A stretch of DNA of 38,018 nucleotides from Chloroflexota bacterium. Lineage in GTDB: Bacteria; Chloroflexota; Dormibacteria; Dormibacterales; Dormibacteraceae. Shown here in pieces: positions 20,866 to 31,861 of this stretch. Within the stretch, counting starts at the first letter, position 1. Every line of letters starts with the position of its first letter. The stretch spans positions 1-38,018 of the forward strand of contig VBEK01000005.1 of NCBI GenBank assembly GCA_005889135.1. Direction: 5' to 3'. The notes under the pieces were generated by a model. That model was not told where the DNA came from and searched no databases. It was given only the letters and a program-made list of their open reading frames with translations. The position numbers and the translations under genes were made by a program.

Positions 20866-21695
20866 TGCCGCTCGCGATCGTCATCGACCTCGACCCGAAC
20901 ATCGTCCGGCTGGGGCCGCTGCTCATCACCTGGCACGGCGTGTTCTCGGTCCTCGGCATCATCGCCGCGGCGCGCCTCGGCTTCTGGCTGCTGGAGCGCA
21001 ACGGCGTCGAGCTCAAGGGCGGCGGGGGCGACGGCCTGGCCTGGATGGTGATCGTCGGACTGATTGGCGCGCGTCTCCTCTACGTGTGGGAGAACTTCCG
21101 CATCTTCGCGAACGGCCAGCTCCTGCGCATGTTCGCGCTGACCGAGGGCGGCATCAGCCAGTGGGGCGGGCTGTTCGGCGCCATGCTCGGCGCGTTCATC
21201 TGGGCGCGCCGGTCGAAGTTCTCCTACTGGAAGATGATCGACGCGGGCGGTCCGGCGACCATGATCGGGCTCGCCATCGGCCGCATCGGCGACGTCATCA
21301 ACGGCGAGCACCACGGCACGCCGACGACCCTGCCGTGGGGGGTCGAGTACGTGAACCCCAACACCCTCGGCGAGCCCGGCAGGATCGTCCACCCCGAGGT
21401 CGCCTACGAGATGGTGCTCTGCCTGGTCATCCTGGCCGCGATCCTGCCCTTCCACGAGCGGCTCAAGAAGCGCCTGCCGGATGGTGCGCTCGGGCTGATC
21501 TACTTCGGCATCTACGCCGCGGGCCGCTTCTTGCTCAGCTTCATGCGCACCGACCCGAGCGTGTTCCTCGGCCTGCGCCAGGCGCAGCTCGCGTCGGCGC
21601 TGGTGGTCGTTGCCGCGCTCATACTCGTACCGGTTCTGTTCCGGCGCGCCGCAAGAGCCGGCGCGCCAGCGCCGGCGAACCCGAGTCGTGCTTGA
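20865..21695 (+). CDS. lgt: Prolipoprotein diacylglyceryl transferase
   Basis: A 276-residue integral membrane enzyme. It transfers diacylglycerol from phosphatidylglycerol to the lipobox cysteine of prolipoproteins on the outer face of the membrane. The family signature reads GRIGDVINGEHHGTPT, against the usual GRxGNxxNxExxG. TWHGVFSVLGIIAAARLGF, the SQWGGLFGAMLGAF segment and FGIYAAGRFLLSFMRTDP are the other conserved blocks, the last with the functional Arg. About seven hydrophobic segments fit the family. ATG 20865 overlaps the gltX stop by one base; GTG 20862 is one codon longer. Its last 77 bases are antisense to the end of the DUF72 gene. Confidence 0.93.
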   Translation: MPLAIVIDLDPNIVRLGPLLITWHGVFSVLGIIAAARLGFWLLERNGVELKGGGGDGLAWMVIVGLIGARLLYVWENFRIFANGQLLRMFALTEGGISQWGGLFGAMLGAFIWARRSKFSYWKMIDAGGPATMIGLAIGRIGDVINGEHHGTPTTLPWGVEYVNPNTLGEPGRIVHPEVAYEMVLCLVILAAILPFHERLKKRLPDGALGLIYFGIYAAGRFLLSFMRTDPSVFLGLRQAQLASALVVVAALILVPVLFRRAARAGAPAPANPSRA

Positions 21696-22323
21696 AGTAG
21701 ACGTGCACCTCCTCGTGCGCCGCCACCGCGGAGCGCACCTCCCCGACCCATGGCTCGAGCGACTTGTTGGTGTAACCGCGGCGTAGACGGAAGTAGGCGA
21801 ACGGCCCGACCTCGACGAGCGGCGCGCGCGGCCACTTCGCCTCGTCGGTGATCACGAGCGCGGCGCCGTGCTCACGCAGCACTCGATAGGTGTCCTCGTC
21901 GAACCACGACCCGTGGCGAAACTCAGTCGCCGCGGGCCGGGTGAGCGCGGTCAGCAGCGAGTCCAGGAGCCCAACGTTCCTCTGGCGCGTGGGTGGGAAC
22001 TGCAGCAGGACCGGGCCCAACCTCTCGCCGAGGACCGCGATGCGGGAGGTGAAGATGCGGGCGAGCCCGACCTTGTCGAATGCCTCCGCCGAGTAGGTCA
22101 GGCCGCGGTTCGCCTTCATGCAGAAGCGAAACGACGGCGGGGTTTCGTCGGCCCATTTGCGCAGCGTGGTCTCCGGCGGCGTGCGGTAGAAGGAGCCGTT
22201 GAGCTCGACGCCGTTCAGCCGTTCGGCGTAGTGGTGGAGCATCTTCGCGCCGGGGAGCGACGGGGGGTAGAACTTCCCTTTCCAGGTCGCGTAGCTGAAG
22301 CCGGACGTGCCGGCGAAAAGCAT
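21619..22323 (-). CDS. DUF72 family protein (YecE-like)
   Basis: A 234-residue TIM-barrel-type DUF72 protein. Typical family segments are present: AGTSGFSYATWKGKFYP at the N-terminus, YAERLNGVELNGSFYRTP, FCMKANRGLTY, PVLLQFPPT, TEFRHGSWFDEDTYRVLREH and the C-terminal VHVYFKHDSGSPALA. The function is not established, though the fold resembles metal-dependent barrel nucleases or isomerases. The start is ATG 22323, sharing one base with the rlmN stop (TGATG), which indicates translational coupling. An upstream in-frame GTG lies within rlmN and is ignored. The 3' end overlaps lgt by 77 bases on the opposite strand, the longest convergent overlap in the window. Confidence 0.87.
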   Translation of the reverse strand: MLFAGTSGFSYATWKGKFYPPSLPGAKMLHHYAERLNGVELNGSFYRTPPETTLRKWADETPPSFRFCMKANRGLTYSAEAFDKVGLARIFTSRIAVLGERLGPVLLQFPPTRQRNVGLLDSLLTALTRPAATEFRHGSWFDEDTYRVLREHGAALVITDEAKWPRAPLVEVGPFAYFRLRRGYTNKSLEPWVGEVRSAVAAHEEVHVYFKHDSGSPALARRLLRRAGTEPVRV

Positions 22324-23375
22324 CAGACAGCCAGCTTCGTTCGCATGACGCGCTCGTGCAGCTGGCCGCACGCCGCGTCGGCCTCACGCCCGCGCGTGTC
22401 CCGCACGGTCACGTTCAGGCCCTGCGCCTCGACCTTCTCCTTGAAGGCGCGAATCGACGCCCGGTCGGGCGCGTGGTACGGCGTGTCTTCGACCGGGTTG
22501 AAGGGGATCAGGTTGACGTGCGCGAGCCGGTTCTTCAAGAGGACGCCAAGCTCGCGCGCGTCGCGCTCGGTGTCGTTGACGCCCGCGAGCATCACCCACT
22601 CGTAGCTCACGCGCCGGCCGCTTTTCTCCGCGTACGCCTGGGCCGCGTCGACCAGGTCGCGCACGGGGTACTTGCGGTTGATGGGCACCAGCACGTCGCG
22701 CAGCTCGTCGCGCGCCGCGTGCAGAGAGATCGCAAGCGTGACCGGGATCTTCTCCTCGGCGAGCTGCTCGATGCGCGGTATGAGGCCGCTCGTCGAGACC
22801 ACGATCCGGCGCGGGCTGATCCCGAGCAGGTCCGGGTCGCTGAGCCGGCGCACCGACTCCACCACCGCGCGGTAGTTGGCCATCGGCTCGCCCATGCCCA
22901 TGAACACGACGTGGGAGAGCCGCCGCCCCTCCGCCGCCAGCACGCGCTGTGCGTCGACGGCCTGCTCGACGATCTCGTGTGCGTTCAGGTTACGGCCGAA
23001 AGGGAACCTGCCCGTGGCGCAGAAGGGACAGCCGATGGGGCAGCCCGCCTGAGAGGAGATGCACAGCGTCGAGCGCTCGGCGTAGCGCATCACCACCGCC
23101 TCGACCGAGTGCCCACCCTCGAGCTCGAACAGCGTCTTGGTGGTGAGGCCGCGATCCGCCTCCGAGACGGCGATCGGCGTGAGCGAGGTCGCACGGAAGG
23201 CGCCCGCGAGCGCGTCGCGGAGCGCCCCCGGCAGGTCCCGCATGGCCGCGAAGTCGGTCACGCCGCGCGCGAGCCAGGTCCAGATCTGTCTTCGGCGGTA
23301 GCTCGGCGCGTCGTGCTCGGCGAGCCAGCCCTCGAGCTCGGCCGCGGAGAGGGAAAGGATCGGGGTGGTGGTCAC
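22323..23375 (-). CDS. rlmN: 23S rRNA (adenine-C2)-methyltransferase (radical SAM)
   Basis: A 350-residue protein with the complete RlmN layout. It methylates C2 of A2503 in 23S rRNA and A37 in some tRNAs. The radical-SAM cluster cysteines are 112, 116 and 119 in GCPIGCPFCATG, preceded by CISSQAG; the conserved VFMGMGEPMANY, RRIVVSTSGLIPRI and ISLHAARDELR follow; Cys336 in DAACGQL is the position used for the methyl-enzyme intermediate. The start is GTG 23375. It overlaps the upstream metallo-beta-lactamase gene as GTGA. A TAGAGT box (23382-23387) six bases upstream might also allow a separate leaderless transcript. Confidence 0.95.
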   Translation of the reverse strand: MTTTPILSLSAAELEGWLAEHDAPSYRRRQIWTWLARGVTDFAAMRDLPGALRDALAGAFRATSLTPIAVSEADRGLTTKTLFELEGGHSVEAVVMRYAERSTLCISSQAGCPIGCPFCATGRFPFGRNLNAHEIVEQAVDAQRVLAAEGRRLSHVVFMGMGEPMANYRAVVESVRRLSDPDLLGISPRRIVVSTSGLIPRIEQLAEEKIPVTLAISLHAARDELRDVLVPINRKYPVRDLVDAAQAYAEKSGRRVSYEWVMLAGVNDTERDARELGVLLKNRLAHVNLIPFNPVEDTPYHAPDRASIRAFKEKVEAQGLNVTVRDTRGREADAACGQLHERVMRTKLAV

Positions 23376-24145
23376 GGACCTACTCTACCGACGGGTTCGT
23401 ACACCTCCCCCGCCTCACGCACGAGTCCATCGTCGACCAGCTTGCGCAGGTGCGCGCGCATCGTCATCTCCGCCGCGACCATCAACTTCTGCTCCAGGTC
23501 GCCGTACACGCGGCGCGTCAGCTGGGCCGCGCTGCCCGCACCGCGCCGCACCTCGGCCAGCACCTGGGCCTCGCGCTCCAGGCGATGAGCGCGGTACTCC
23601 TCGATCTTCGCCATCGCGTCGCGGACCGGGTCCCAGTGGCCGGGAAACAGCATGCGCGGTCGCAGCGCCGCGAGTCGCTCGAGCGAGCGCAGGTAGGCGG
23701 CGACGTCGCCCTCGGGATAGGTGACCATCGAGCTGCCCCGGCCGAGGATCAGATCGCCCGTGAACACCGCGCCGTCGTCCGCGAGCAGGAAGCAGAGGTG
23801 GTCGGCGCTGTGCCCCGGCGTATGCAGCGCGGTGAGGTTGAGGTTGCCGGCGCGGACGATGTCGCCGTCGCTGAGCTCGGGATACCTGCGCACCGACGCG
23901 TGGTGCGGCCCGGCGAAACGCTCCGCCAGTGGAAGGTGGTCTGGGTGCGAGTGGGTCACCAGGACAGCTCCCACGGCCTTCCCCACCAGGCGCCTGTTGA
24001 GGGCCGCCAGGTGCGCGTCGTCGTCAGGCCCCGGATCGATCACGACCACGACCGGCCCCGCGTCGACGATCCAGGTGTTCGTGCCCGGCCCCGTGTAGGG
24101 GCCAGGGTTAGGGGCGACGACCCTGGTGACGCTGGCCGGAGCCAC
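23372..24145 (-). CDS. Metallo-beta-lactamase fold hydrolase, LACTB2-like
   Basis: A 257-residue protein. The metal-binding HxHxDH motif is HSHPDH (residues 65-70), followed by HTPGHSADH near 108-116, Asp131 in FTGDLIL and His170 in FPGHWDP, so all dinuclear metal ligands are present. The C-terminal 60 residues are a helical winged-helix-like region (AQVLAEVRRGAGSAAQLTRRVYG), as in LACTB2-type proteins, which act on RNA or thioesters. The first strand begins with APNPGPYTGPGTNTW. I choose GTG 24145, with GAGG about nine bases upstream; longer frames run into noncoding sequence. It is co-transcribed with rlmN and DUF72. Confidence 0.87.
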   Translation of the reverse strand: MAPASVTRVVAPNPGPYTGPGTNTWIVDAGPVVVVIDPGPDDDAHLAALNRRLVGKAVGAVLVTHSHPDHLPLAERFAGPHHASVRRYPELSDGDIVRAGNLNLTALHTPGHSADHLCFLLADDGAVFTGDLILGRGSSMVTYPEGDVAAYLRSLERLAALRPRMLFPGHWDPVRDAMAKIEEYRAHRLEREAQVLAEVRRGAGSAAQLTRRVYGDLEQKLMVAAEMTMRAHLRKLVDDGLVREAGEVYEPVGRVGP

Positions 24146-24347: not shown

Positions 24348-25097
24348 TCAGCGCGTGCTGTATGCGGGCAGGTAGATGTCGGCCCCGTCGGGCCGGCTCG
24401 CGTCGAGCCAGCCGTCGAGCTGAGTGTCGACGACCAGACGGACCAGCGGCTCGCCCAGCTCCGGCACCGGCAGCGGCTTTCGCTCGCCGGTGGCCGTGAC
24501 CTGGATCTTCCACCAGCCGCCAATGCGCTCAGCCGAAACGCTGAGGGAATCGCCCAGCAGCCAGTCGCGGACGCGGGTGAAGGCCTCGACCATCACAGGC
24601 TCGGAACCAAGGACGACGGCCTCGGCCCCGACGTTGTTCGAGGCGGTGGGCATGGCCAGGTTGAGAACCGCGCCGAGGACCACGCCCCGGGCGCTGTCCT
24701 TCGGCTCGACCGCCGCCGCCTCCAGACCGGCCGCCCGCCGCCCGACCTCCTGCGCCTGCTCGAACAGCCCCTCGAGCATCTCGGGGCGCCCGAAAGCAGC
24801 CTGACGCGCCGACTCCTGCAGGGCAAGCACCGAGGAGCGCAGCTTGTGTCCCAGCCGGCCGAGAAGGTAGTCGCGCTGCTCGTTCTCGAATCGCTGCCCC
24901 AGCTCCGCCGATTGGCGCGCGGTCCGCAACCCGCTCCGCTCCGCCCAGCCGACCAGTCGCCCGTTGAGGACGAGCGCCTCCCACGGGCCGCCGGGAGGCG
25001 GGAACTCGGCGTCGGCCGGGCCATGGCGCTGGTGATCGGGGACCGACTCCAGGCCGCCGCCGACTCGGACCCACATCGGCGCGACGGGGCCGTTCAT
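24348..25097 (-). CDS. Degenerate histidine-kinase-like protein, possible histidine phosphotransferase (Spo0B/ChpT-like in layout)
   Basis: A 249-residue soluble protein. Residues 68-125 resemble a dimerisation/histidine phosphotransfer helix pair: ENEQRDYLLGRLGHKLRSSVL, with His84 where a kinase H-box would be. Residues 165-245 follow the order of a HATPase_c fold (a helix near VMVEAFTRVRDWLL, a strand GGWWKIQVTATGE, a C-terminal LVVDTQLDGW ... GADIYLPA), but no N-box asparagine, DxGxG or GxGxG motif is visible. Such a layout, H-box kept and ATP site lost, is that of phosphotransferases such as Spo0B and ChpT. It lies 32 bases after the large kinase gene on the same strand. The start is ATG 25097, with no Shine-Dalgarno. 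An inactive kinase or regulatory subunit is an alternative. Confidence 0.72.
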   Translation of the reverse strand: MNGPVAPMWVRVGGGLESVPDHQRHGPADAEFPPPGGPWEALVLNGRLVGWAERSGLRTARQSAELGQRFENEQRDYLLGRLGHKLRSSVLALQESARQAAFGRPEMLEGLFEQAQEVGRRAAGLEAAAVEPKDSARGVVLGAVLNLAMPTASNNVGAEAVVLGSEPVMVEAFTRVRDWLLGDSLSVSAERIGGWWKIQVTATGERKPLPVPELGEPLVRLVVDTQLDGWLDASRPDGADIYLPAYSTR

Positions 25098-25129
25098 AAC
25101 GGGAGTAACGGCGTCGATGCGGGAATCCG

Positions 25130-28100
25130 TCAGGTGCGGATCCGTGCCGGGACGGTGAACCGAAACGTGGTCCCGCGACGGTCGCTCGCCGCCACCCAGA
25201 TCCGGCCGCCGAAAGAACGCTCGACCACCAGGCGGCACAGGTAGAGACCAAGACCCAGCCCGCCCTGGGAGCGGCTGCGTCCCGCGGGCCCCGTCTTCTC
25301 GAACACCGTCTCCAGCGTCGCCGCGGGCAGGCCCTGGCCGTTGTCCGCGACGGTCACCTCGAGCCAGCCGCGCTGCACCTGGCGCGCCTCGACCTGCACC
25401 GACCCGGTCGTGTACTCGAGGGCGTTGCCGATCAGGTTCGTCAGCACCTGGGCGAGGTGGGCCGGCTCGCAGAACGCGGGCGGCAGGTTGTCAGGCAGGT
25501 TGACCTGCACCGCCGAGGTGCGCTCGGCGTAGCGGTGGTTGAGCACGGCGAGGACACCGGTCAGCGCGCCCTCGAGCTCGAGCGGCTCGGGCGTCGGCTC
25601 GAAGTGGCGCGTCTCGAGCTTGGCGATGATCAGCTGGCTCTCGACCAGGCTCAGCAGCCGGTCTGACGACTCGTAGGCCTCCTGCAGCAGCGTTCGCCGG
25701 CCGGTCGAGTCGATCGTCTCGTCCCACTGCATGATGCCGGCGAGGGTGTTCTTCATCGCCGCCGCGGGGCTCCGCACCTCGTGGCCGATGGCACGCAGCA
25801 TCAGGTCCTTCGCCTCTAACGCCTGGCGCTGCACGGTCACGTCCTCGTGCAGCGTGAGGACGCCGGCGGGCTCGCCCTCGAGGCCCGGGATGACCACGCG
25901 GCGCACGTGGACAGTGCGATCGGGCTCCTTCATGCGCAGCTCGAGCGTGCCATCGACCTCTCCGTCCTCGGCGGGGACCGCGCCGGCAGCGGCGTAGATC
26001 TCGTCGGGCTTCCGCCCCGGCATGTCGGACGCCTGCAGGCTGTAGATGGCCTCGATCTCGGGGTTCGCGTAGACGATGCGTCCGGCCGCGTCCTCGAGCA
26101 TCACCCCCACCGGCGAGTGGCGAAGGATCGCGTTCATCATCCGCCGCTCGCGGTCGAGCGCGTCCACGAGCTCGAGCTGGCCCAGCAGCACGGAAGCCTG
26201 GCCGGCGAGCACCCCAGCGAGCCGGCGCGTCTCCGCCCCGCCTGCAGTGATGCGCGCGACCAGCAAGCCGGCGAGCCTGCCCTCGACCTGGATGGGGATG
26301 GCGAACGCGTCGGGCGGCGCGCCGAGCAGGTCGAGGAGCGCGCGCAGCCTGCGCCCACCCGCGGTCGCACTCAGGGCGCGCAGGAGCTGGACGCTGTCGC
26401 TGACCGGCACCTTGGGCGAGACCTCGCCGTTGTCGGAGCGGCACACGAGCTCGCCGTCCTCGAGCAGCCACAGCTCGCCCTGCGAGCCGGCGAGCGCGCG
26501 ACTCACCAGGCGCGCCATCTCGGAGCGGGCGCGGTCGGGTTCGGTCGGGGTCAGCTCGGTGAACGCGGCCACCGCCTCGAGGGTGCGAATGCGGCCGCGC
26601 GTCTCGGCGACCAGCCGCGCGTTCTCGATCGCGACCGCCGCGTGACGAGCGAAGTCCAGCGCCGCCCCGCTGGGCTCGGGGACGAGCGTCGACGCGTGGA
26701 CGGCGCCGATCGCGCCCACGAGCCGATCGCCGTACCACAGCGGGATGAGGTTCCACGCGTGGTCATGCGCCGTCCCGCTCACGATCCCCGGCGGGGCGGT
26801 CCGGTCGTCGGAGCTCAGGCCCGCCCACGCGAGCACCTCCTCCGCGAGCGGATCCCCGCTGCCGCGCGTGGCGGTGACGCGGCCTTCGGTGTCGAACGCC
26901 CAGCACACCGTCCCCGCGCACTCGAGCATCGTGCGTGCCTGGTCGGCGATGTTGGCGACCACGCTCATCAGCTCGTGGCCGGCGAGCGCGGCGAGCTCCT
27001 GGATGCGCACCGACTGCGCGAGGGCGAGCTCGTTGGCGTGGTGCAGGCGCATGGTGCGCAGCGCGATGCCGACGACCGGCATCGCCGCCTCGAGCAGCTT
27101 GAGGTGGGTGGCCTGGAAGTGGCCGCCGTCGTTGCGCATCGCGACCACGCCGGCGACGACGCGGTCGTTCTGGGTGATGGGCGCCCAGACGACGTGGCTC
27201 GGCGTGCGGGTGAAGATGTAGCTGCCGATCGGGCCGTCGAGGTCCGAGGAGTCGCTGATCACGTGGTCCACGACGCTGCTCGCGCCGCCCTCGATCATGC
27301 GCCGGAAGAACGGCGCGTTGTCGATCATGACCGGGCCGATCGGCGTGGCGGGCTGGCCGCGCTCGGCGGCGAACCCGCTGACCATCCCGGCCACGTCCAC
27401 GTAGGCCAGGACCATGTGCGTCGACTCGAGGTAGTCGCCGGCGACCTTGAACACCGCCTCCGACAGCTCGCGCTCGTCGGACGCTCCGGCCACGCCCATC
27501 TCGAACAGGTGCAGCGCTTCCAGGCGCGCTCGCTCCGTCTGGGCCTGGGCGAAGTGGTCGGCGTTCGCCAGCGCCAGGCTGACGTGCGCCGCCACGTCCT
27601 GCAGCAGCTTGACGTGCCAGTCGTCGAACGCGCCCTCGGTGTAGGACTGGAGCGAGAGCATGGCGGTGATGCGTTCGCCGCTGAGCACCGGCACCCAGAC
27701 GAAGGAGCGGGAGATCTTCCGCTGCTCGTCCGGCGGGCCGGAGACGAAAACCGCGGCGCCGCGGCCGACGGTCCACACCTCACGCTGCAGGCCCTTCTCC
27801 TCGAAGGAGCGGCGCCAGGGGTTGTTGCGCACCAGGATCGGCTTGCCCGTCTCGTACGCCTCGCGCGATGGACCGGTCACCGCCAACGCCACGGGCGGCA
27901 CGACCTCTTCCACGCCGGCGACGTACTGGTAGCCCTCCGCGATCGGACCGTCCTGGCCGTCAGTGATGGTGGCCAGGATGAAGCCGTCGAACTTGAGGTT
28001 GGCGGACAGCTCCTCGCGCAGCGTGCGCATGATCGACCAGCGGTCGAGGCTGGACGCGAGGCGCCGGCCGACCGCGTTCACGACCTCGAGTCGCCGGCGC

Positions 28101-29149
28101 TGGTCCTCGATCGCCTCGTAGCTGCGCGCGTTGCGCAGGGAGAGCGTGACCTCGTCGGCGACCAGCTCCATGAACGCTCCCGTCGAGGCCTCGTAGGCAT
28201 ACGGGCGAGAGAAGTTGATGCCGAGCGCGCCGCGCGCTCCGCCGCTCTCCTTCAGCGGCACCCACAGCGAGGAGTGCGGGTAGTGGGCGAGCACCGGCTT
28301 GTTGCCGGCGACCACGTCCCGCGCCGTGACGGTGTGCGCGGAGCGGGCCGTCAGCCAGCGCGACGTCGGGAGCGAGTCGCCAACCATCTGCATGTAGCGC
28401 GCGCGGTCCGTGCCCTCCGGCAGCGTGACCATCTCGAGGGTGTCGACCGGCAGCAGCTCGCGCAGCGTCGCGTAGAGGCCGCTCAGCACGCTGGCCTCGT
28501 CGAGGGTCGACGTCATAGCGCGGGCGATGCTGTTCAGGGCCTCGAGGCGTCGCGCCTGGTTCCTAGTCAGCTCGTTCAGGGAGGCGTTGACGAGGAGCAC
28601 GCCCAGCCGGCGATGGACGTCCTCGAGGAACTCGAGCTCGGCACGCGCGACACGCCGCTTGCGGAAGCTCTGGTAGCTGACGCTGCCTATGAGCTCGCCC
28701 TGGTGCATGACCGGCACCCAGATCGCGAGCTTGGGCGTCACGCCGGCGCCAGGACCCTTCCCGATCTGCTGCCGCGCGGTCTCGACCGGCATCACGGTCG
28801 TCTTGGGGTTGGCGAACTGGCGGGCGAACATCGACTCCCGGACGGGCCGGCGCCGCACGTCCTGGAGCACACCGGCGTCCATCGGCAGGGAGTGGTACCA
28901 ACCCTCGCGCTCGAGCACCTGGAGGTTGATCACGTCGTAGCCGAACCGGCCGTGCAGGCCGCGGTACAGGACCTGGACCAGGTCGGCCTCGGTGACGCAG
29001 CTCCCCAGCTCGTGGATGAGGGCGGTGGCCGAAGGCCCCGGCGTCCGCCCGTTGCCGCGCGCCGGCGTGCTCGTGGAGGCGCGTGCCGGTTTGGCCATCA
29101 CCACGGTGCGCGAGCGGTGCGAGCTGCCATTGCGGCGGGATTGCGCCAT
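25130..29149 (-). CDS. Soluble multi-GAF/PAS sensor histidine kinase
   Basis: 1339 residues with no membrane segment. After a basic, Ser/Thr-rich N-terminus there are about six GAF-like domains (roughly 40-193, 203-343, 353-533, 543-703, 713-848 and 853-998), each beginning with a linker helix, then a PAS domain (about 1001-1108; GVMLEDAAGRIVYANPEIEAIY), a HisKA domain with His1123 in AIGHEVRSP, and a HATPase_c domain with Asn1242 (NLIGNALEY), DNGQGLP (1269-1275) and GGLGLGLYL (1296-1304). The kinase core is intact. The GAF domains could bind small molecules or nucleotides, but no ligand is identifiable. ATG 29149 is seven bases after TATATC; GTG 29155 would add two codons. The gene is divergent from a receiver gene and followed by the kinase-like gene. 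Confidence 0.92.
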   Translation of the reverse strand: MAQSRRNGSSHRSRTVVMAKPARASTSTPARGNGRTPGPSATALIHELGSCVTEADLVQVLYRGLHGRFGYDVINLQVLEREGWYHSLPMDAGVLQDVRRRPVRESMFARQFANPKTTVMPVETARQQIGKGPGAGVTPKLAIWVPVMHQGELIGSVSYQSFRKRRVARAELEFLEDVHRRLGVLLVNASLNELTRNQARRLEALNSIARAMTSTLDEASVLSGLYATLRELLPVDTLEMVTLPEGTDRARYMQMVGDSLPTSRWLTARSAHTVTARDVVAGNKPVLAHYPHSSLWVPLKESGGARGALGINFSRPYAYEASTGAFMELVADEVTLSLRNARSYEAIEDQRRRLEVVNAVGRRLASSLDRWSIMRTLREELSANLKFDGFILATITDGQDGPIAEGYQYVAGVEEVVPPVALAVTGPSREAYETGKPILVRNNPWRRSFEEKGLQREVWTVGRGAAVFVSGPPDEQRKISRSFVWVPVLSGERITAMLSLQSYTEGAFDDWHVKLLQDVAAHVSLALANADHFAQAQTERARLEALHLFEMGVAGASDERELSEAVFKVAGDYLESTHMVLAYVDVAGMVSGFAAERGQPATPIGPVMIDNAPFFRRMIEGGASSVVDHVISDSSDLDGPIGSYIFTRTPSHVVWAPITQNDRVVAGVVAMRNDGGHFQATHLKLLEAAMPVVGIALRTMRLHHANELALAQSVRIQELAALAGHELMSVVANIADQARTMLECAGTVCWAFDTEGRVTATRGSGDPLAEEVLAWAGLSSDDRTAPPGIVSGTAHDHAWNLIPLWYGDRLVGAIGAVHASTLVPEPSGAALDFARHAAVAIENARLVAETRGRIRTLEAVAAFTELTPTEPDRARSEMARLVSRALAGSQGELWLLEDGELVCRSDNGEVSPKVPVSDSVQLLRALSATAGGRRLRALLDLLGAPPDAFAIPIQVEGRLAGLLVARITAGGAETRRLAGVLAGQASVLLGQLELVDALDRERRMMNAILRHSPVGVMLEDAAGRIVYANPEIEAIYSLQASDMPGRKPDEIYAAAGAVPAEDGEVDGTLELRMKEPDRTVHVRRVVIPGLEGEPAGVLTLHEDVTVQRQALEAKDLMLRAIGHEVRSPAAAMKNTLAGIMQWDETIDSTGRRTLLQEAYESSDRLLSLVESQLIIAKLETRHFEPTPEPLELEGALTGVLAVLNHRYAERTSAVQVNLPDNLPPAFCEPAHLAQVLTNLIGNALEYTTGSVQVEARQVQRGWLEVTVADNGQGLPAATLETVFEKTGPAGRSRSQGGLGLGLYLCRLVVERSFGGRIWVAASDRRGTTFRFTVPARIRT

Positions 29150-29156
29150 TGCCACG

Positions 29157-29164
29157 GATATACT
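29157..29164. promoter_or_regulatory. Overlapping divergent -10 boxes for the kinase and receiver genes
   Basis: Minus strand TATATC (29162 to 29157) is seven bases before the kinase ATG 29149; plus strand TATACT (29159-29164) is 14 bases before the receiver GTG 29179. The start codons are only 29 bases apart, so one AT-rich core probably serves both transcripts and would coordinate their expression. Confidence 0.55.
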
Positions 29165-29178
29165 GCGCCAGAATTCCG

Positions 29179-29613
29179 GTGCCCTTCACCCCTCCGAAGC
29201 CGATTGCGCCCACTCCTGAGGAGCTGAGGGGCTCGACCGTGCTCGTCGTCGACGACGAAAGGGCGTGGAGGGTGATCCTGGAGACGGACCTGAAGATGCT
29301 CGGTTACAGGGTCTCCATCGCCGAGGACGCGGACCAGGCGCTGGTCCGGGCGGTGGCGGACAAACCGGAGGTGGCCATCATCGACCTGATGCTGCCCGAG
29401 CCGATGGACGGCTGGGGGCTGCTGAACGAGCTGAGGTCGCGCGGACAGAAGGTGCCCGTGATCTTCTACACCGCCTACCCGGTCTTCCCGTCGGGAACCG
29501 ACGACCCGGACGTCGTCGGCTACATGAGCAAAGCCGTCGACCGGGCAGACCTCTACGCCCTGCTCCCGGTCGCCATACGACGCTCGCGAGAGCGCCGCAA
29601 CTCAGGCAGTTAG
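29179..29613 (+). CDS. Single-domain response regulator (receiver only)
   Basis: A 144-residue protein with one REC domain after a Pro-rich lead of about 20 residues. VLVVDDERAW gives the acidic pair, IIDLMLPEPMDGWG the phospho-accepting Asp, IFYTAYP the switch Thr, and YMSKAVDRADL the conserved Lys, so all receiver residues are present. There is no output domain, only an Arg-rich tail (RRSRERRNSGS). Such proteins act as phosphate shuttles, sinks or interaction switches, like Spo0F or CheY. I start at GTG 29179 because the longer frame runs into the kinase gene and its promoter. It is divergent from the kinase, which makes it a likely partner. Confidence 0.87.
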   Translation: MPFTPPKPIAPTPEELRGSTVLVVDDERAWRVILETDLKMLGYRVSIAEDADQALVRAVADKPEVAIIDLMLPEPMDGWGLLNELRSRGQKVPVIFYTAYPVFPSGTDDPDVVGYMSKAVDRADLYALLPVAIRRSRERRNSGS

Positions 29614-29617
29614 GTGC

Positions 29618-29761
29618 TTACCAGCCGAAGTCGGAAAAGAAGCTGCCAGCGTCGCCGGTCGCGCTCGACTGCTCGACCCAGTTCGCTCCCACCGCGAGGG
29701 CAACAGCGAACAGAACGAGCAGAACCACAATCACTGTCGGGACCCTCAATCGCCACGTCAT
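29618..29761 (-). CDS. Small single-pass membrane protein, 47 residues
   Basis: ATG 29761 to TAA 29618-29620. The product begins MTWRLRVPTVI, continues with a hydrophobic helix VVLLVLFAVALAVGAN (about residues 9-27), and ends in WVEQSSATGDAGSFFSDFGW. Arginines before the helix and an acidic, aromatic tail after it predict N-in, tail-out topology. AAAGGGG lies about ten bases before the ATG and TAAATT four bases before. It faces the receiver gene, with only four bases between stops, and is divergent from the second regulator. No family is recognised; the clean helix, start context and tidy fit in the gap argue that it is real. It might be a sensor-associated or stress-type microprotein, which is inference. 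Confidence 0.62.
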   Translation of the reverse strand: MTWRLRVPTVIVVLLVLFAVALAVGANWVEQSSATGDAGSFFSDFGW

Positions 29762-29842
29762 CCCCAATTTACCCCTTTGTTTTTCGAACTACGCCAGGTC
29801 CGGACACAAAGTATGCCTGAATCCCGTCGTATTTGGGCGCTC

Positions 29843-29873
29843 TAGAATCATCAATCTTCGTAAATAATAGTGT
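29843..29873 (+). promoter_or_regulatory. AT-rich promoter region of the receiver/winged-helix regulator gene
   Basis: A notably AT-rich stretch in otherwise GC-rich DNA. TAGAAT (29843-29848) and TAGTGT (29868-29873) are candidate -10 boxes, and TAAATAATAG lies between them. AGGGGG precedes TTG 29884 by a few bases. The minus-strand gene at 29761 is divergent, so regulation of both could occur here. Confidence 0.42.
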
Positions 29874-29883
29874 AGGGGGCAGC

Positions 29884-30684
29884 TTGGAAAATCACAGTGA
29901 TAACCACGGGCGAGCTCATCCCCGCCAGCGCGAGGTCAAGCTGCCTCCCCTGCCCCCCGGCCTGGAGGTCTACCGGCCGGCGGACGTGCTCGGATCCTCT
30001 GTCCTGGTGGTCGAGGACGAGGCGGCGATGCTGCAGCAGCTGCGCATCGACCTCCAGGACCTCGGTTACCGACCTTCTGTTGCCGCCACGGTGGCGGAAG
30101 CCCAGGATGTGCTCGAGCACGAGCGGGTGGCCGCGGTCCTCCTCGACCTCGTCCTGGACGAACGCGAGGACTCGGGTTTCGAGCTCCTGACCTGGATCCG
30201 CCAGCATCATCCCGGCCTCCCGGTGATCGTCCTCTCCGCGGCGCAGGTCAACTCGGCCTCCATCCGCCGGGCCTACGAGCTCGGGGCCAGCTCCTACTTC
30301 GTCAAGGGCAACGTGCCGATGGCGCATATCTACTCCGACCTGGCGGCGAGGCTGGTGGAGCGCGGCACGGGGCGGCCGGGCAACTACCGTTTCGGCCGGC
30401 TCGAGTTCGACCCCACGCACCGCATCATCCGGCTCGGCGACAGCGAGGCGCGGCTGACCCAGCAGCAGACGGCGCTGGTCCTGTTCCTCGCCCAGGGCTC
30501 CAAGCCGGCGACCGCCCGCGACCTGATCCAGGCCGGGCTCTTCCGCAACAACGCCGCCCACTCGACCGTGCACTCGGCGCTCCTGACCCTGCGTCGCCGC
30601 CTGGACGACCTCCAACCGGGTCTGGGGGCGACGTTCGTGCACGCGTCCGCGCGCGGCTACTCGCTCGTCGCCGTACATGAGTGA
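29884..30684 (+). CDS. Response regulator, receiver plus OmpR/PhoB-type winged helix
   Basis: About 266 residues. The receiver (about 38-160) has SVLVVEDEAAML (acidic pair), AVLLDLVLDERED (phospho-acceptor Asp), VIVLSAAQ (switch Ser) and YFVKGNVP (Lys). After a short linker, residues 170-265 form an OmpR/PhoB-type winged helix: YRFGRLEFDPTHRIIRLGDSEARLT, a recognition-helix region HSTVHSALLTLRRRLDD, and the C-terminal wing ATFVHASARGYSLV. It is a DNA-binding response regulator whose target genes are unknown. TTG 29884 is preferred, with AGGGGG just before it; the frame is open to 29833, but those codons cross the AT-rich promoter. Its last 8 bases overlap the M20 amidohydrolase start (ATGAGTGA). 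Confidence 0.88.
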   Translation: MENHSDNHGRAHPRQREVKLPPLPPGLEVYRPADVLGSSVLVVEDEAAMLQQLRIDLQDLGYRPSVAATVAEAQDVLEHERVAAVLLDLVLDEREDSGFELLTWIRQHHPGLPVIVLSAAQVNSASIRRAYELGASSYFVKGNVPMAHIYSDLAARLVERGTGRPGNYRFGRLEFDPTHRIIRLGDSEARLTQQQTALVLFLAQGSKPATARDLIQAGLFRNNAAHSTVHSALLTLRRRLDDLQPGLGATFVHASARGYSLVAVHE

Positions 30685-31861
30685 CGACCACGCCACCACG
30701 CCGCTGCCGAGCAAGTCGGTGCTCGACGACGTCGTCGACCTGCGCCGCCACTTCCACAAGCACCCCGAGGTCAGCTTCAGCGAGCAGGAGACGTCGCGCT
30801 ACCTGAAGGACAGGCTGCGCGAGCTGGGGCTCGACCTCCTGCAGTGCCCGACCGAGACCGGGGCGGTGGCGCTGCTCGACACCGGCCGGCCCGGCAAGAC
30901 CGTGATGCTGCGCGCCGACATCGACGCGCTGCCTATCCACGAGGAGTCGGGCGTCGACTTTCACTCCCGCATCGACGGCCGCATGCACGCGTGCGGGCAC
31001 GACGCGCACATGGCGATCATGATCGGCGTCGCGCGCACCCTGATCGACCGGATCTGGGACGTTAACGGCAAGTACCTCTTCGTCTTCCAGCCCGCGGAGG
31101 AGATCGTCGAGGGCGCCAAGGCGATGATCGCGCGCGGCCTGCTCGACGACCACCGGCCCGACTCCGTCATCGGGCTGCACATCGCCAGCTTCATGCCGTC
31201 GGGCACGGTGATCACGCGACCGGGGCTCCTGTGGGCGGGGTCAGACGCCTTCGACGTCAAGTTCTCGGGTCCCGGCGGCCACGGAGGAATGATGGGCAGG
31301 CGCGGCAACGTCCTCGCCGCCCAGGCGTTCTTCGTCGAGCGCTTGCACACCGTGGTCGAAGGCCTGGAGCACGAGGGCGTCCAGTGCCACACGACCGTCG
31401 GCAACATCGCGAGCGACGGCGCATGGAACATCGTCCCCCGCGGCGTGCTCGTGCAGGGCAGCCTGCGCACGTTCAACGACACGCTCCGCGAGCAGGCGCT
31501 GGACCGCCTGCACGACCTGCTGCGCGAGACCGAAAGCGAGTTCGAGGTCAAGTCCAACGTCGACCTCGTCCACGGCACGGTGCCGCTGATGAACGAGCCG
31601 AACGTGACGCGTAAGGTGCTCGAGGTCGGAGAGGAGCTGATCGGTGAGCGCGCGAGCGTGCTCGGCCGGCCGCTCACCGTCAGCGACGACTTCGCCGAGT
31701 TCCTGACCCGCATCCCCGGGTGCTACTTCATGCTCGGGGCGCGCCCCGAGGGCGACACGCCGCCGGCGCACCACTCGCCGGGGTTCCGGATCGACGAGGG
31801 GGCGCTGCCGGTGGGGGTGAAAGTCCTGGCGGGGGCGGCCTCACGACTCGCCGCCGAGTAG
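30677..31861 (+). CDS. M20 family amidohydrolase (hippurate/IAA-amino acid hydrolase type)
   Basis: A 394-residue M20D-type metallopeptidase. Metal-binding residues match the family: Cys106 and His108 in MHACGHDAHMA, Glu141-142 in FQPAEEIVEGA, His168 in IGLHIASF and the C-terminal PAHHSPGF histidine. The dimerisation (lid) domain lies between about residues 185 and 300, including SGPGGHGGMM. These enzymes hydrolyse N-acyl or N-aromatic amino acids, hippurate, or conjugated auxins; the substrate is open. ATG 30677 overlaps the regulator gene by eight bases, so the amidohydrolase is translationally coupled to a DNA-binding response regulator, an uncommon pairing. Confidence 0.93.
   Translation: MSDDHATTPLPSKSVLDDVVDLRRHFHKHPEVSFSEQETSRYLKDRLRELGLDLLQCPTETGAVALLDTGRPGKTVMLRADIDALPIHEESGVDFHSRIDGRMHACGHDAHMAIMIGVARTLIDRIWDVNGKYLFVFQPAEEIVEGAKAMIARGLLDDHRPDSVIGLHIASFMPSGTVITRPGLLWAGSDAFDVKFSGPGGHGGMMGRRGNVLAAQAFFVERLHTVVEGLEHEGVQCHTTVGNIASDGAWNIVPRGVLVQGSLRTFNDTLREQALDRLHDLLRETESEFEVKSNVDLVHGTVPLMNEPNVTRKVLEVGEELIGERASVLGRPLTVSDDFAEFLTRIPGCYFMLGARPEGDTPPAHHSPGFRIDEGALPVGVKVLAGAASRLAAE

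Follow-up and report, generated by a model that had tools for sequence, protein, structure and literature searches.

Histidine phosphotransferases derived from histidine kinases have been described from Firmicutes and Alphaproteobacteria, namely Spo0B, ChpT and PhyT; our account of them follows excerpts of the papers cited. In the sporulation relay KinA/Spo0F/Spo0B/Spo0A the four roles are filled by an orphan kinase, a lone receiver, a kinase-like phosphotransferase and a DNA-binding receiver, and the genes are dispersed, with that of Spo0B lying between the genes of ribosomal protein L27 and Obg (PMC6136694). In the general stress response of Sphingomonas melonis, the Pak-SdrG-PhyT-PhyR chain leads from one or several kinases over a single receiver of the FAT GUY family to the degenerate-kinase phosphotransferase PhyT, which is membrane-anchored and has an HRxxN box, and on to the output receiver PhyR, which exerts its effect through binding of the anti-sigma factor NepR (PMC5898713). 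ChpT has a dimerisation and histidine phosphotransfer (DHp) part and an ATPase-like fold with an altered lid and binds no ATP; it passes phosphate to CtrA, a DNA-binding response regulator (PMC3433190). In CckA-ChpT-CtrA/CpdR the receiver that serves as donor is a domain of the hybrid kinase CckA (PMC3433190, PMC9981736). Here we describe a locus in contig VBEK01000005.1 of a Chloroflexota bacterium, a stretch of 38,018 nucleotides (the window), which, judged by sequence and structural models, quite probably encodes a four-step His-Asp-His-Asp phosphorelay of similar layout.

The draft genome to which the window belongs, as contig C11, measures 2.95 Mb and is 94.7% complete. The host family is probably an uncultured soil group, to judge from names of relatives such as "30cm" and "Pasture" (22 loci). 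The locus spans positions 24348-30684 and holds four genes, which we abbreviate K (kinase), H (the 249-residue protein), R1 (lone receiver) and R2 (receiver/winged-helix regulator). K and H point leftward, with 32 bases between the stop of K and H, and R1 and R2 diverge rightward. An initial annotation, made from the letters alone, had placed the four genes exactly there and had proposed that they may form an undescribed relay. The features are as follows.

24348-25097, minus strand: H, putative histidine phosphotransferase, 249 residues (AlphaFold2, Foldseek, profile alignment to the kinase core)
24846-24848, minus strand: His84 codon of H, invariant in 37/37 sequences
25130-29149, minus strand: K, sensor histidine kinase of 1339 residues (GAFs, PAS, HisKA and HATPase_c; Pfam, NCBIfam)
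about 25781-25783, minus strand: phospho-His codon of K (H-box GHEVRSP in the core alignment)
29150-29178, no strand: gap of 29 bases between the divergent start codons of K and R1 (direct reading of the sequence)
29179-29613, plus strand: R1, stand-alone receiver with a GTG start (Pfam Response_reg, E 1.6e-16)
29383-29385, plus strand: acceptor Asp codon of R1 (35-row alignment, AlphaFold2 model)
about 29884-30684, plus strand: R2, receiver plus OmpR/PhoB-type winged-helix regulator (Pfam Response_reg, E 4.5e-17)
30145-30147, plus strand: acceptor Asp codon of R2 (receiver match)

We suggest that phosphate transfer proceeds in the following steps. K would sense a signal via its GAF/PAS modules, phosphorylate itself and pass the phosphoryl group to R1. 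Phosphorylated R1 would then hand the phosphate to His84 of H, a protein which is probably dimeric and would no longer bind ATP. From H the phosphate would go to the receiver of R2, which then would alter transcription. The domain types of the four proteins, the descent of H from a histidine kinase, the loss of its ATP motifs, the conservation of His84 and the joint inheritance of the genes are supported by sequence or model. The order and direction of transfer, the dimerisation of H, the partner specificity, the signal and the targets we infer.

The outer members of the chain are readily recognised. The open reading frame of K (25130-29155, minus strand) opens at a GTG at 29155, and the ATG at 29149 gives the 1339 residues. 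Pfam finds GAF_2 in three stretches, PAS_4 and HATPase_c (E 2.7e-25), and HisKA with 23.7 bits, slightly below the cut-off of 26.9. NCBIfam likewise gives kinase-core matches, and H-box, N, G1 and G2 motifs are legible in the core alignment, so that the intact kinase core seen earlier is borne out. R1 is a receiver domain alone (Pfam). R2, for which we propose a TTG start at 29884, matches PmrA/BasR and KdpE over almost its whole length; no output domain was accepted by Pfam. By its predicted domains R2 is the natural end point of the chain, because it keeps the usual linker and has a DNA-binding domain.

For H, an AlphaFold2 model computed from 37 sequences (mean predicted local distance difference test score, pLDDT, 92.1) consists of a small beta domain (8-52), a helix bearing His84 (57-100), a second helix (106-129) and an alpha/beta domain (137-245). 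Residues 57-129 form a DHp-like hairpin and residues 137-245 a degenerate ATPase-like domain. The model and the alignment thus agree with the HATPase_c-like order of elements, lacking N-box, DxGxG and GxGxG, that had been read from the sequence. The top Foldseek matches in the PDB are DHp plus catalytic (CA) cores of histidine kinases, with 121 matches at E <= 0.001; the best is 4kp4 (E 1.1e-7, template modelling score 0.52 by query length) and the second DivL, 4q20 (E 2.7e-7). The fold search suggested with the initial annotation therefore gave the hairpin and the kinase-core fold, but Spo0B and ChpT are absent from the best 50 matches.

Sequence searches place H in no known family. No Pfam or NCBIfam family scores above its cut-off. 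Nine Pfam families are matched at E <= 1 by any of the 37 homologues, and neither HATPase_c nor the models of Spo0B and ChpT, presumably named SPOB_a and HPTransfase, are among them. The four PDB sequences at E <= 10 include neither Spo0B nor ChpT; no sequence relative was found in the PDB, and a sequence relation to Spo0B was found neither there nor in Pfam. Candidate families from Pfam, NCBIfam, PHROGs and the PDB were rejected as sub-threshold noise, for example SH3_9 (E 0.023) and a coat protein (E 0.4). Profile-profile alignment is more informative. H aligns collinearly with the core of its neighbour K over 177 columns with a score of 50.4 (probability 91.6), against at most 21.0 for 30 column shuffles, 13.7 for the reversed profile, 12.7 for R2 and 15.2 for R1. 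The hairpin halves alone still reach 30.9 (probability 77.6). His84 falls exactly on the phospho-acceptor histidine of K (GHKLRSS versus GHEVRSP). Sequence and model thus support the view that H descends from a histidine kinase.

The initial annotation had pointed to His84 in RLGHKLRSS as an H-box-like histidine, and this residue is indeed invariant in all 37 aligned sequences, that of the window included. The following residue is Lys in 37/37 rows of H versus Glu in 38/38 rows of K; the acidic residue of HisKA/HATPase_c kinases at this position is thus not present in H. The nucleotide site has gone as well. The ATP lid, about 19 residues, is deleted relative to the core of K, positions 165-182 contain no N-box Asn in any row, and where the second glycine box would stand every row reads PE[LM]GEPL, so that of N-box Asn, DxGxG, GxGxG and lid each is absent or deleted. 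Because the altered positions are uniform across the 37 rows, the domain is settled and conserved and not that of a decaying gene. The invariant His84, the constant Lys behind it and the lost ATP-site motifs make H probably a phosphotransferase and not a kinase, a protein which would carry phosphate but could not draw it from ATP. In sequence and model H shows what marks a kinase-derived phosphotransferase, that is, a kinase fold, a conserved histidine and a degenerate ATP site.

The small N-terminal beta domain of H has nine invariant residues among 50, and no counterpart is described for Spo0B, ChpT or PhyT in the excerpts of PMC6136694, PMC3433190, PMC9981736 and PMC5898713. We also observe that residues 7-44 (24966-25079, minus strand; RHGPAD..FPPPGGPW) are well conserved though they lie outside the phosphotransfer core, and that residues 1-17 of R1 (29182-29232, plus strand; PFTPPKPIAPTPEELRG) are well conserved except in one genus, g7. 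The N-terminal parts of both proteins are possibly docking elements.

H is found in 37 of the 42 genomes of the family, the window's included, with 52-88% identity. At the level of the class, a cut-off of E <= 0.01 gives matches in 38 of 110 genomes, these 37 and genome G131 with a fragment of 28 residues (E 0.0047); in a sample of the phylum 21 of 400 match, 20 family members and G273 with 64 residues (E 1.5e-4). We treat both fragments as chance matches or generic kinase pieces. The absence of H outside the family rests on these 110 and 400 genomes and on a pattern scan over 84,980 species, which detects close relatives only. R1, R2 (both at E <= 1e-18) and the 513-residue sensor half of K (E <= 1e-15) each occur in the same 38 class genomes, namely the 37 with H and G038, where the contig of 5119 bases stops just after K. 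Four further family genomes without H (G019, G039, G040 and G041, which are 84, 59, 94 and 94% complete) give only generic kinase and receiver matches; the family genomes are drafts, 59-99% complete. Among the 110 class genomes the four-gene set is thus confined to one Dormibacterota family, and, the cut contig of G038 aside, all four His-Asp-His-Asp components are co-inherited. The pattern suggests that the set was gained once and then inherited vertically.

Of the 37 genomes with H, 32 have the four genes on a single stretch, ordered R2-R1-K-H and divergent as in the window, and in 35 K lies next to H on the same strand. In three of the 32 (G003, G013, G015) R2 runs into the contig end. In three others (G002, G004, G021) R1, R2 and the start of K are on a second contig; a true loss near H was ruled out there, as contig breaks explain the pattern. 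The initial annotation expected homologues of H beside kinase and receiver genes: the gene set is present in all 37 genomes, but the adjacency fails in the two of genus g7 (G024, G025). With the hairpin predicted, His84 conserved and kinase and receivers always in the same genome, the relay interpretation itself is strengthened. In g7, R2 and H remain adjacent and divergent at the old place. A second contig carries K (at base 132,674 of 202,159 in G024), which lacks about 460 residues of the sensor region; R1 is on a third contig with 45-46% identity and is shorter because of a stop codon near the end of the match. In a tree of RpoB, g7 forks with the genera g8 and g2 (97/95), in each of which the cluster is complete, and G040, a genome without the system, falls outside this fork. 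The tree holds RpoB from 20 of 24 genomes, is midpoint-rooted between four genomes of other families and the family, and leaves the branching order within the fork unresolved. Since g7 shares the fork with clustered genera, the dispersed state in g7 is apparently derived, and all four parts persist there. For the same reason we rejected the scenario of an insertion of K and R1 into an older R2-H pair.

Downstream of H follow three genes whose names are our own reading of the sequence.

21619-24100, minus strand: genes taken to be of the metallo-beta-lactamase (MBL) fold, rlmN-like and DUF72-like, kept after H in g7

In 36 of the 37 loci, those of g7 among them, the MBL-fold gene shares the strand of H and is no more than 726 bases away from it, which argues for an old and vertically inherited neighbourhood.

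Genome G026 has three kinases of the K type with the same H-box and two receivers of the R1 type with the same alpha1 residues, together with one H and one R2. The extra copies lie at L210 5360-9571, L211 4380-7448 and L212 6394-7293, and the kinase open reading frames have 1404 and 1023 residues. Such numbers are what a chain with H-R2 as its common end would lead one to expect, and a fan-in of several K and R1 into a single H-R2 is possible. Contamination of this genome is listed at 4% and may have contributed the extra copies, though extra copies of H and R2 would then be expected too.

The receivers have features of their own. Intermediary receivers such as that of CckA, SdrG and Sma0114 are described as missing alpha4 and having a FATGUY motif (excerpt of PMC9981736). 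The AlphaFold2 model of R1 (pLDDT 90.7) has no alpha4 between beta4 and beta5 (pLDDT about 69 over 101-110). For the choice of partners we compared the receivers of the window's genome. Of 46 matches the partial C54:5871-5990 was left out and the partial C210:7300-7509 kept, so that 45 were compared. At six alpha1 positions of our own choice R1 and R2 are mutually nearest among 44 others. Seven positions were taken from Table 1 in the excerpt of PMC6136694 and mapped with the Spo0F sequence; here R1 and R2 agree at three of seven and are each other's best among the 44. In a control stretch, beta2-beta3, R2 ranks 33rd for R1 and R1 6th for R2. One alpha1 Asp is common to R1 and R2 and occurs in no other of the 45 receivers; it is kept in 35/35 rows of each. 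On the side of H, the residues at His+11 (Glu95) and His+14 (Arg98) are invariant, and these are published partner-choosing positions (PMC6136694). Our guess is that Arg98 contacts the alpha1 Asp of both receivers.

Several observations weigh against a relay of this kind. The ATPase halves of H and K align only weakly when taken alone (27.6, probability 28.3; 30 shuffles at most 21.3), and both profiles are shallow, with an effective number of sequences of about 2. A single vertical gain means that the 37 genomes are not 37 independent events. The end of beta4 in R1, FYTAY in 31/35 rows, is a partial FATGUY match only, and the meaning of that motif is itself unsettled; it also occurs in the end-point CpdR (excerpt of PMC9981736). 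By fold, R1 comes closest to ordinary receivers; Spo0F of Paenisporosarcina takes sixth place, and neither CckA nor SdrG is among the best 50. The likeness of the R1 and R2 interfaces is weak when taken alone, because three or more of the seven positions agree in 62 of the 990 pairs that the genome's receivers form. Over the whole of alpha1, R2 shares first place for R1 and R1 is only 5th for R2; when the beta5-alpha5 loop is included, R2 falls to 6th place for R1 and R1 moves to 2nd for R2. In g7, finally, R1 with 45% identity has diverged further than R2 (65%) and H (54%).

Three other explanations have to be considered. H could mainly be a negative regulator which holds unphosphorylated R2, or drains phosphorylated R2 via His84 to R1, while active K phosphorylates R2 directly. 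PhyT offers a precedent, as this degenerate kinase sequesters PhyR besides transferring phosphate (excerpt of PMC5898713), and H remains beside R2 in g7. Such a scheme, however, leaves it uncertain what R1 would do, although R1, with a mean column identity of 81% versus 75% for H, is well conserved, and all four genes are retained together in the 37 genomes with H. We regard it as unlikely. The second-best fold match, DivL, and the co-directional pairing of K and H suggest another role for H, that of an allosteric adaptor which, with phosphorylated R1 bound, tunes K through contact while His84 stays free of phosphate. DivL is said to have a Tyr at the position of the phospho-His, and the PDB title of 4q20 calls it a tyrosine kinase, but His84 is invariant within a conserved H-box, and where the cluster is broken H stays with R2 and not with K; an adaptor of this sort seems to us rather improbable.

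We give hardly any credence to the idea of two separate pairs, K-R1 with an output at the protein level and H-R2 fed by another kinase or receiver. The distance of K and R1 from H-R2 in g7 and the 44 other receiver matches in the genome would allow for it. Yet across the 110 class genomes (G038 aside) no genome has some of the four genes and lacks the others, and this holds even in g7, where they are unlinked. In our view the four-step relay from K over R1 and His84 to R2 accounts best for the locus.

How then does this relay compare with the described systems? The four roles are those of the Spo0 relay, but K, H, R1 and R2 are clustered, R1 lacks a predicted alpha4, and in place of the L27/Obg setting of Spo0B the MBL-fold gene and then the rlmN-like gene follow H. 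From Pak-SdrG-PhyT-PhyR the locus differs in that H has the small N-terminal beta domain and, in 37/37 rows, Lys and not the Arg of the HRxxN box after its histidine, and in that R2 is a DNA binder of the OmpR/PhoB type. R1 is a separate protein, unlike the receiver of CckA. ChpT reportedly has an acidic residue after its histidine, where H has Lys. By the features tested, H is not a Spo0B, ChpT or PhyT, and by analogy would work like them. We lean slightly towards the view that a kinase-derived phosphotransferase arose separately in Dormibacterota, characterised by the N-terminal beta domain, the basic Lys85 after the phospho-His and an invariant Arg98 that would read the alpha1 Asp of both receivers, and that several GAF kinases can feed into it as the only hub of a relay that defines the lineage. 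Among the titles and abstract openings listed for the open-licence literature there is no account of this system and none of a phosphorelay of the group, in keeping with the earlier suspicion that the relay may be new.

Two further observations concern the flanks of the genes. The 29-base gap between K and R1 contains TATACT at 29159-29164, read directly from the sequence, and K and R1 therefore likely have overlapping promoters and short or leaderless transcripts. On the other side, a gene for an amidohydrolase, which we take to be of the M20 type (30677-31861, plus strand), shares 8 bases with the end of R2, stop codon included. Of 35 stretches with R2, 29 have this gene after R2 in the same direction; in four of the other six the contig ends in or at R2, and in the two of g7 the gene is absent from the 20 kb covered. 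It is possibly a co-regulated target.

In summary, the proposed layout resembles that of the sporulation and stress relays Spo0 and Pak-SdrG-PhyT-PhyR, with an apparently separate phosphotransferase. A family-wide case in which a probable relay sits in one small cluster, together with a genus in which it was dispersed without loss, makes a test bed for the change from kinase to phosphotransferase and also for recognising intermediary receivers from sequence. For the uncultured group itself, the locus points to a main regulatory switch.

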